From NCBI RefSeq assembly GCF_018408855.1, contig NZ_AP024322.1:310001-374000 (forward strand): DNA of 64,000 nucleotides. Reading direction: 5' to 3'. The DNA is from Caballeronia sp. NK8 (lineage in GTDB: Bacteria; Pseudomonadota; Gammaproteobacteria; Burkholderiales; Burkholderiaceae). The notes beneath the pieces are model-generated. The model was given only the letters and a program-made list of their open reading frames with translations, searched no databases and was not told the DNA's origin. Made by a program: the position numbers and the translations under genes. Below are positions 22,640 through 24,537 of this stretch, one piece after another. Within the stretch, counting starts at the first letter, position 1. Every line of letters starts with the position of its first letter.

Positions 22640-23050
<411 letters not shown>

Positions 23051-23066
23051 GTCGTCATTCAAAAGA

Positions 23067-23121: not shown

Positions 23122-23544
23122 TTACGCTTCGACGATCTCGAACGAATGTGTCAGCTCCGCCGACTTCGCCAGCATGATCGACGCCGAGCAATACTTGTCG
23201 TGCGACAGGTTGATCGCGCGCTCGACCGTCGCCGGATTCAGATTCTTGCCGGTCACCGTGAAATGAAAGTGGATCTTGGTGAAAACCTTCGGGTCCTCGC
23301 TCGCGCGATCCGCTTTCAGCGTGACCGAGCAGCCCTGGATTTCCTGACGGCTCTTTTTCAGGATCATCACGACGTCGTAGGCCGTGCAGCCGCCCGTGCC
23401 GAGCAGCACCATTTCCATCGGGCGCGGCGCGAGATTGCGGCCGCCGCCTTCCGGTGCGCCATCCATATTGACGAGATGGCCGCTTCCCGTTTCGGCGGCG
23501 AAGGCCATGCCGTCTTGTCCCATCCAGCTAACTTTGCATTCCAT
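23122..23544 (-). CDS. OsmC/YhfA-family protein
   Basis: Protein of 140 aa of the OsmC fold. The two conserved cysteines are in GTGGCTAYDV (about residue 53) and DKYCSAS (about 118). OsmC and Ohr use such cysteines to reduce organic peroxides. The sequence is closest in feel to YhfA-type members, whose role is not established. It is transcribed towards rnpB and starts at the edge of the long AT-rich intergenic region. Confidence 0.88.
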   Translation of the reverse strand: MECKVSWMGQDGMAFAAETGSGHLVNMDGAPEGGGRNLAPRPMEMVLLGTGGCTAYDVVMILKKSRQEIQGCSVTLKADRASEDPKVFTKIHFHFTVTGKNLNPATVERAINLSHDKYCSASIMLAKSAELTHSFEIVEA

Positions 23545-23784
23545 GCTCAGGCTCCAGCTGCTCAGCGCGTCGTTACAGAGGCTTCATTGTAGCGGCTCAG
23601 GAAGTTTCGATCCGCCGCTGCTTACGAGCATCTACCGGTTGACGAAGCGAAAATCGGCGCGTGGATTCGGTCGCGGTGGGTTGGAGGACACACTCTAGAT
23701 GCCCGTTTGACCGAAAATTCAGATAAACGAATAGGGTAACGTATTGATTTTGCTGTGGAAAATCCACGAAAAACTACCATATCA

Positions 23785-23805
23785 GAATTTCGAATTATGA
23801 AATTC
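23785..23805. promoter_or_regulatory. Perfect 7-bp dyad upstream of the sRNA promoter
   Basis: GAATTTC (23785-23791) and GAAATTC (23799-23805) are separated by GAATTAT. It ends 21 bp upstream of the -35 hexamer. This is the right spacing for an activator site or an UP-like element; no regulator is identified. Confidence 0.35.
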
Positions 23806-23826
23806 ATTTTCACCATGCAAATCTTC

Positions 23827-23855
23827 TTGCCTTGCAGCATGACCGTGCCTATACT
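23827..23855 (+). promoter_or_regulatory. Sigma-70 promoter of the anti-SD sRNA
   Basis: TTGCCT (23827-23832), a 17-bp spacer and TATACT (23850-23855) form a good housekeeping promoter. Predicted transcription start is about 23862. The upstream DNA is AT-rich, which would strengthen it. Confidence 0.65.
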
Positions 23856-23861
23856 CGTTCC

Positions 23862-23923
23862 TGTCTCCTCCACCTCCTCCTTGGTGGATTAAGCCCGAGC
23901 CACCGTTTGCTCGGGCTTTTTTT
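23862..23923 (+). ncRNA. Small RNA with an anti-Shine-Dalgarno loop
   Basis: Predicted transcript of about 62 nt. Hairpin 1: CCACC (23870-23874) pairs with GGTGG (23883-23887) and exposes an 8-nt loop TCCTCCTT, complementary to the AAGGAGGA ribosome-binding consensus and resembling the 3' tail of 16S rRNA. Hairpin 2: a 10-bp stem (23891-23900 with 23909-23918) followed by seven T is an intrinsic terminator. From memory, Rfam holds a 'Betaproteobacteria toxic small RNA' family with anti-SD motifs, found through clone toxicity; this may be a member, but I cannot run the search. The alternative reading, a 17-codon ORF from 23839, would start upstream of the predicted transcription start. Confidence 0.65.
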
Positions 23924-23950
23924 CGTCCATACGCCGCGTGAAGCAAAGCT

Positions 23951-23980
23951 TTGACGTCGCGCTCGAAATCCCTTTATAAT
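23951..23980 (+). promoter_or_regulatory. rplM-rpsI promoter
   Basis: TTGACG (23951-23956), an 18-bp spacer and a consensus TATAAT (23975-23980), with a leader of about 120 nt to the rplM ATG. A strong promoter fits a ribosomal protein operon. Confidence 0.75.
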
Positions 23981-24108
23981 TCAAAGTTCTCTTCGCCCTA
24001 CGCCCGCGGAGAGAAGCTTGTGAGAGCCTGCACGCGTCCTGAACGCACCCATATAAGCAGGGCCGAACAAGTCAAAGCTCAAGGGCAGATCAATTTTTTG
24101 GATCGATC

Positions 24109-24537
24109 ATGAAGACGTTTTCCGCAAAAGCCGAAGAGGTGACGCGCGAATGGTACGTGATTGACGCGACGGATAAGGTTCTCGGCCGTGTCGCCAGCGA
24201 AGTGGCACGCCGTCTTCGCGGCAAACACAAGCCTGAATTCACTCCGCACGTCGACACTGGTGATTTCATCATCATCGTCAATGCTGCCAAGCTGAAGGTC
24301 ACCGGCAACAAGACCACGGACAAGAAGTACTATCGTCACTCGGGCTACCCGGGCGGCATTTACGAAACGACGTTCGGCAAGATGCAAGAGCGCTTCCCGG
24401 GCCGCGCGCTCGAGAAGGCTGTCAAGGGCATGCTTCCGAAGGGTCCGCTCGGCTACGCGATGATCAAGAAGCTCAAGGTCTACGCCGAAGCAACGCATCC
24501 GCATACGGCTCAACAGCCTAAAGCGCTCGAGATCTAA
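24109..24537 (+). CDS. rplM: 50S ribosomal protein L13
   Basis: L13 (142 aa) binds 23S rRNA early in large-subunit assembly. Sequence and length match the bacterial family throughout ([48 protein letters not shown]). rpsI follows after 11 nt, the near-universal L13-S9 pair. The leader is about 120 nt with a possible hairpin (TTCTCT...AGAGAA), but I do not recognise a known L13 leader. The ribosome-binding site is weak. Confidence 0.98.

Follow-up and report, generated by a model that had tools for sequence, protein, structure and literature searches.

The closest described relatives of the locus discussed here are ncS27 and the other double-hairpin RNAs of Burkholderia cenocepacia, which fall under the same family model, form two hairpins with anti-Shine-Dalgarno (anti-SD) stretches and include a member at the same address, beside BCAL3349 (PMC5688073; PMC4603805). 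These RNAs are predicted to cover ribosome-binding sites, and ncS27, reported as a 92-nt RNA that can be processed to a short form, slows growth when overexpressed and speeds it when silenced (PMC5688073). Glucose medium raises ncS03, ncS05 and ncS27 8.0-, 6.9- and 4.3-fold, respectively (PMC5688073, Table 2), and NcS27 is reported to affect how the cell uses certain amino acids and sugars (PMC10987360). What regulates sRNA accumulation in B. cenocepacia is stated to be unknown (PMC5688073).

A second relative, S17 from Bordetella pertussis, has by its authors' account nearly the same 5′ anti-SD region and a -35 element reading TTGCAT, but it is cut by RNase E from a 190-nt precursor and has other neighbours, unlike the copy studied here (PMC11722255). 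S17 directly represses a sigma-54 activator, and in B. pertussis lacking it 92 genes go up, 70 of them with complementary sites near the ribosome-binding site; its authors postulate a repressor without naming one (PMC11722255). The NmsR RNAs of Neisseria (RF02877) likewise direct two CU stretches against ribosome-binding regions (PMC5688073). MmgR (alpha-r8) of Sinorhizobium meliloti is a small RNA repressed by PhaR/AniA through a site in its promoter (PMC12542648; PMC8401924), and belongs to another RNA family than RF02278.

The locus upstream of rplM and its family

The window, a 64,000-nt stretch of the genome of Caballeronia sp. NK8, holds between its OsmC-like gene and rplM the following features.

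23122..23544, minus strand: neighbouring gene for an OsmC-like protein (PF02566, 6.4e-19)
23785..23805, no strand: inverted repeat GAATTTC-N7-GAAATTC upstream of the promoter, many aligned orthologues sharing ATTTCACATTATGAAAT-type sequence
23827..23832, plus strand: -35 element TTGCCT (sequence and promoter scan), with TTGC at the same place in many orthologues
23827..23839, no strand: degraded PhaR-type site TTGCCTTGCAGCA, TGC-N3-GCA kept, with C in the centre instead of A/G
23850..23855, plus strand: -10 element TATACT, 17 bp after the -35 and 6 nt ahead of the RNA core
23862..23924, plus strand: RF02278 small RNA, ncS27 orthologue (covariance model, 68.5 bits), predicted 5′ end near 23862
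23864..23871, plus strand: first anti-SD stretch UCUCCUCC, its last three bases lying in the 5′ arm of hairpin 1
23869..23888, plus strand: hairpin 1, stem UCCACC/GGUGGA, arms 23869-23874 and 23883-23888 (folding)
23875..23882, plus strand: second anti-SD stretch, loop UCCUCCUU of hairpin 1 (folding)
23891..23923, plus strand: hairpin 2, an intrinsic terminator with a 10-bp stem and then a T run (folding and terminator scan)
23951..23980, plus strand: a second, separate promoter-like site, TTGACG-18-TATAAT, toward rplM (promoter scan)
24109..24537, plus strand: rplM, the neighbour at a conserved address (gene call)

The initial annotation, made from the letters alone, had proposed an Rfam search and pointed to a family named Betaproteobacteria toxic small RNA; that family, RF02278, scores 68.5 bits against 23862-23924, above its gathering cut-off of 50. 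NmsRb (NmsR, RF02877) was rejected at 27.5 bits against a cut-off of 52, as were anti-hemB/Burkholderia RNA 7 (RF02837), SorY (RF02651) and SorX (RF02784) at 26.2, 23.8 and 21.9 bits, all below cut-off; the weak matches of the last three models come through the CU stretch and the terminator. The 9.2-Mb source genome bears eight RF02278 matches, five of them above cut-off, and the family is found in 138 of 150 genomes of the same taxonomic family, in 60 of 90 genomes of the order and in none of 14 control genomes.

The promoter TTGCCT-17-TATACT, claimed to be of the sigma-70 type, is present in the sequence and in a promoter scan, which returns three such sites across 23540-24110 where shuffles predict 0.4. 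A terminator scan, with one found and 1.0 expected from shuffles, is by itself of little weight. Folding of 23860-23925 recovers both of the hairpins described earlier, the second being the intrinsic terminator, at -28.8 kcal/mol; 200 shuffled sequences give -12.4 ± 2.4, and not one folds as well (z = -6.8). The loop UCCUCCUU and the UCUCC of the 5′ stretch are unpaired in this fold, and the RNA pairs with AAGGAGGUGAUC, a 12-nt SD sequence, at -15.1 kcal/mol, which agrees with the anti-SD loop that had been claimed. The segment 23862-23924 is thus a genuine small RNA gene, belongs to a family known before, and has a predicted transcript of about 62 nt.

A match to RF02278 precedes rplM in 18 of 20 named relatives and in 14 of 20 wider relatives, a scan that took in 40 of the 80 retained rplM loci; the two misses among the first 20 are L022 and L025, whose locus has just 323 bases before rplM. 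The RplM protein encoded in the window shares 99% identity with its Caballeronia arvi counterpart. The copy in the window occupies the interval between the OsmC gene and rplM, which is also the address of ncS27 if BCAL3349 is the OsmC gene, as we take it to be. In B. cenocepacia, ncS27 sits between BCAL3348a and BCAL3349 (PMC4603805), and in L012-L014, which are Burkholderia orthologues, the 30-nt leader and the 62-nt core add up to 92 nt, matching the published ncS27 length. By the rplM address, the BCAL3348a/BCAL3349 table and this sum, the window copy is judged to be an orthologue of ncS27. The element itself is already known, and the general reading of it as an anti-SD RNA was right.

The remark that it sits beside the rplM operon holds as a conserved address, but the address is no evidence of ribosomal control, since rplM is parted from the terminator by the separate promoter-like site at 23951-23980. 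A class A RNase P RNA gene (22640-23054, plus strand) is found upstream of the OsmC gene and also opens the rplM loci of many relatives.

The leader between the -10 element and the core

In the Burkholderia and Paraburkholderia orthologues, TATAAT is followed by about 30 nt (ATTGGTTG... or similar) and then by the core. This leader is absent from the window copy, C. arvi, C. glebae and Ca. Paraburkholderia calva. Whereas ncS27 is a processable 92-nt primary RNA (PMC5688073), the window copy has its -10 element 6 nt from the core and lacks the leader of an ncS27-type precursor. Within the genus, 44 of 46 genomes searched, the source genome included, gave a match, and among the best 30 of the 44, which were made into loci, 22 are leaderless (own included; 21 of 29 genus-mates) and eight have a leader, a leaderless share that is biased upward by the leaderless query. 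On a tree of rplM-rpsI DNA from 29 of the 30 loci and three outgroups (L317, with no rplM start found, was dropped), the leader label changes four times, with at least two changes forced by supported branches. Judged from these sequences, the spacing between the -10 element and the mature 5′ end seems to have closed up on more than one occasion.

With the leader missing, transcription from this promoter should begin at the core and yield the mature RNA without processing. The earlier expectation of a 62-63-nt RNA straight from the promoter would thus apply only to part of the genus, while the primary transcript of Burkholderia and Paraburkholderia is longer. Inside the genus, L319 and L320 share a second, apparently separate leader loss. 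The loss in the window copy and its genus-mates is new here and, having occurred on at least two branches, provides natural pairs in which to ask what the processed leader does.

Operator-like motifs at RF02278 promoters

The -35 region of the other RF02278 copies mostly reads TTGC(G/A)NYGCANCA, and TGC-RNY-GCA is found ahead of the start codon in four of the five own-genome phasin loci. The looser pattern YGCRNYGCR occurs upstream in 26 of 32 phasin loci from the own genome and family, L159, read from a wrong start, being scored as a miss. An operator matrix built from 37 of the 39 TGC-N3-GCA phasin sites (the second site of L168 and that of L180 were dropped by eye) gives phasin sites scores of 9.8-23.1. 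In Herbaspirillum seropedicae, PhaR (PhbF) recognises TG[N]TGC[N]3GCAA, footprints its own promoter and binds eleven promoters (PMC3206438), and it represses both phasin promoters in Escherichia coli (PMC4873508); the PhaR core of S. meliloti, where PhaR represses the sRNA gene mmgR, is YGCRNYGCR (PMC12542648; PMC8401924). The phasin-promoter pattern agrees with both the footprinted motif and this core. As the site of R. eutropha PhaR is described as unrelated to that of P. denitrificans (PMC3206438, introduction), there is no consensus that all PhaR proteins share a single motif.

The hypothesis arose from the sRNA promoters, and the counting pattern was taken from the S. meliloti work (PMC12542648). 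Genome-wide, neither TTGCNNTGCANNA (109 occurrences against 99 for its reversal) nor the 13-base pattern TTGCRNYGCANCA (46 against 43) is clearly enriched, so the pattern alone proves nothing; two RF02278 copies and two phasin genes have one of the 46 matches in their promoters. Around the own-genome phaR, 3.2 kb contain six loose matches and no strict match. GC-rich coding DNA often holds the loose motif, with 129 occurrences in the window, and for that reason shuffles, the strict form TGCRNYGCA and flanking sequence served as controls.

The phaR gene (PF07879) is present in 64 of the 90 genomes of the order. The formal operator count covered the listed RF02278 hits down to E 6e-6, which amount to 69 hits in 44 genomes; the own genome and G213 were excluded, and 14 genomes of the order with weaker hits alone fell outside it. 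YGCRNYGCR lies within 200 nt upstream of the best hit in 29 of 32 genomes with phaR and in none of 12 without it (Fisher 2e-8), and 100 shuffles of the upstreams from genomes with phaR gave a mean of 4.25 and a maximum of 10 of 32. The strict form is found in 23 of 32 against 0 of 12 (shuffles: mean 1.28, maximum 7). The motif is missing at the best hit of the phaR-bearing genomes G232, G236 and G174, and from the 220 nt upstream of the weak hit of G213, also phaR-bearing, which if counted makes the figure 29 of 33. Over all hits, the operator stands at 39 of 52 in genomes with phaR and 1 of 17 in those without, the exception being a loose match at the second-best hit of G180. Twenty-nine loci of the order had been inspected by eye before this count; among the hits not inspected beforehand the figures are 19 of 31 and 1 of 9 (Fisher 0.02). 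In phaR-bearing genomes of the order, the loose motif occurs in 20 of 21 sRNA upstreams as against 18.7% of 273 flanking 200-mers, and the strict motif in 17 of 21 as against 5.5%. The own family gives 61 of 67 upstreams for the loose and 51 of 67 for the strict form, these loci being the 30 best-scoring and 37 hand-chosen, upstreams unseen, among the matches listed.

From these counts, RF02278 promoters appear to carry the operator of the phasin promoters, TGC-RNY-GCA, to which PhaR would bind, and this looks new: a word search of open-access papers naming RF02278 returned no link of these RNAs to PhaR or PHB, the subscription literature, including the primary paper on NcS27, lying outside its scope. 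On a 44-genome tree of RplM and RpsI, phaR changes about five times and the operator eight times, with one independent phaR/operator pair on supported branches and five on the best tree, too few for significance to be obtainable from independent contrasts. The co-occurrence may partly reflect shared ancestry, its phylogenetic independence being weak. This scarcity of independent contrasts, and the fact that in many copies TTGC is at once part of the site and the -35 element, give some substance to the alternative that TGC-RNY-GCA belongs to another regulator or is a mere extended -35 unrelated to PHB. We consider that alternative doubtful, though the most serious of those weighed here, in that the requirements of a core promoter do not account for GCANCA, which falls in the spacer, that the site stands at differing distances in other families (for instance -22 in L185, -75 in L188 and -133 in L183), and that it equals the phasin operators and is seen at no best hit of the 12 genomes without phaR.

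Sub-threshold relatives of RF02278 in G213 (40.0 bits) and G170 (33.1 bits) start 33 and 17 nt past the stop codon of a phasin gene (PF09361, 2.2e-19 and 1.1e-18, respectively), and both phasin genes are divergent from phaR, with two operators in between. These two and the relative in G218 all have a CU-rich 5′ end followed by a fold of two hairpins. Neither the weak hit of G170 nor that of G218 has the motif in its own upstream 220 nt, and the operators lie farther off. In two loci, L248 (31-96, minus strand) and L253 (1374-1452, plus strand), the anti-SD double hairpin thus makes up the 3′ UTR of the phasin gene that diverges from phaR. The G218 relative (31.9 bits; L254, 370-435, minus strand) lies between a phaB-like gene, presumably for an acetoacetyl-CoA reductase, and phaR, with two operators toward phaR, and no phasin gene was found in that locus. 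The 150 nt after 32 own-family phasin genes hold no CTCCTCC or CCTCCT, except in L163.

The site of the window copy is a degraded one. It has TGC-N3-GCA at the promoter, but its centre is CTT and does not fit the RNY of YGCRNYGCR, and its matrix score of 10.0, in the minus-strand reading, lies at the low end of the phasin range and is reached by 1.8% of 1168 control 200-mers. The sequence TTGCGTCGCACAAG occurs in seven of the eight Paraburkholderia-titled rplM loci that hold the sRNA. TTGC(C/T)T(T/C)GCAGCA recurs in many genus-mates, so the window-type site may be kept for some reason. Only two of the eight own-genome copies have the full site, L003 (22.6) and L001 (15.6), the other five scoring 7.7 or less. 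With its degraded operator and lost leader, the window copy is probably made directly at mature length and probably less, or differently, controlled by PhaR. The dyad at 23785-23805 belongs to a conserved upstream block, ATTTCACATTATGAAAT...ATTTCGCAATGCAAAT, and in several Paraburkholderia and Burkholderia loci its second half reads as a second, adjacent PhaR-type site (CGCAATGCA). The initial annotation had suggested that this dyad may control the RNA; the regulator site recovered at the -35 region of relatives, of PhaR type, is a different one.

Hairpins, targets and a proposed role in carbon storage

Positions G2-A11 of the core (GTCTCCTCCA) are invariant in all 33 rows of alignment A2, comprised of the window and 32 orthologues. 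A MAFFT alignment of the cores misaligns the stems, so its covariation count (three pairs with both sides changed) was set aside and 69 cores were folded singly instead, namely those of the window, 32 rplM-locus orthologues, seven own-genome copies and 29 loci of the order. Two hairpins form in 67 of the 69, and loop 1 holds CTCC or TCCTC in 51. The uninterrupted inner helix of stem 1 comes in 16 types, with UCCACC/GGUGGA in 35 cores and UCCAUGUC/GAUAUGGA, UCUAUUCU/AGGAUAGA and short ones among the others, and the terminator helices come in 48 types. The shape of the hairpins is kept while the stem sequences vary, and the conservation of loop and stems in relatives, on which the initial annotation had staked its case, is borne out. 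With the Rfam match and the fold, it supports an sRNA gene on the plus strand, and the locus is likely an anti-SD sRNA of the RF02278 family.

Loop 1 varies among the eight copies of the own genome, TCCTCC occurring there solely in the window copy and L001, and these differences suggest split target sets. The seven other matches (L001 and L003-L008) mostly keep the 5′ anti-SD stretch, with a divergent loop 1. The flanking ORFs of L001, L003, L004 and L005 (eight long ORFs, five without a Pfam match) show no shared theme. A local cluster of copies, three RF02278 matches inside about 4 kb, is seen in another genome at G155:C1:1642577-1646602.

The initial annotation had read the loop as a mimic of the 16S rRNA tail, which would titrate most SD sites and slow growth under stress. 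The -15.1 kcal/mol duplex with an SD sequence is of the kind such a global inhibitor would form, overexpressed ncS27 does slow B. cenocepacia and the family is named for inhibition of E. coli (PMC5688073), but the growth effect in B. cenocepacia came at more than 60-fold overexpression (PMC5688073), overexpressed NcS27 slowed growth on several substrates but had no such effect on others (PMC10987360), and overexpressed S17 left exponential growth of E. coli unimpaired, its loss from B. pertussis raising a set of 92 genes (PMC11722255). The variation of loop 1 among own-genome copies also speaks against it. On the published accounts of relatives, global inhibition is not supported and is unlikely, and repression would be selective. 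That the hairpins are instead the terminator or attenuator of a passing transcript, with no sRNA gene, is very improbable: hairpin 2 is indeed an intrinsic terminator and the distance from promoter to terminator is short, yet family members are known in print as discrete RNAs (PMC5688073; PMC4603805), the core is invariant over G2-A11 and the upstream OsmC gene points away. The reading of the minus-strand bases as ribosome-binding sites of a small gene, for which there are GGAGGAGG on that strand and overlapping mechanical ORFs of 54 and 83 codons, was rejected as negligible, since variable-length indels between promoter and core in orthologues would break the frames and no Rfam family comes near its cut-off on the minus strand at the core.

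Under the selective, PhaR-linked reading, the locus would yield a trans-acting sRNA of about 62 nt of the double-hairpin/RF02278 family, whose two CU stretches would pair with the SD regions of chosen mRNAs and lower their translation, as partly shown in relatives. The repressor PhaR, released from DNA by PHB, would sit on TGC-RNY-GCA at the sRNA promoters, so that as carbon overflows into PHB the RF02278 RNAs would rise and further uptake and catabolism would be damped. The induction of family members under carbon excess would fit such a release. We lean, by a modest degree, towards the anti-SD RNAs of Burkholderiales being a riboregulatory arm of the PHB sensor PhaR, in which stored PHB would draw PhaR from its operators and the RNAs, carried in some families in the 3′ end of the phasin mRNA, would shut down translation for carbon uptake and catabolism; the window would then represent a branch in which one copy is being freed from both leader processing and the operator. 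The PhaR operator gives the RF02278 RNAs a named candidate regulator and, if this proposal is true, a widespread anti-SD riboregulator would be tied to carbon storage.
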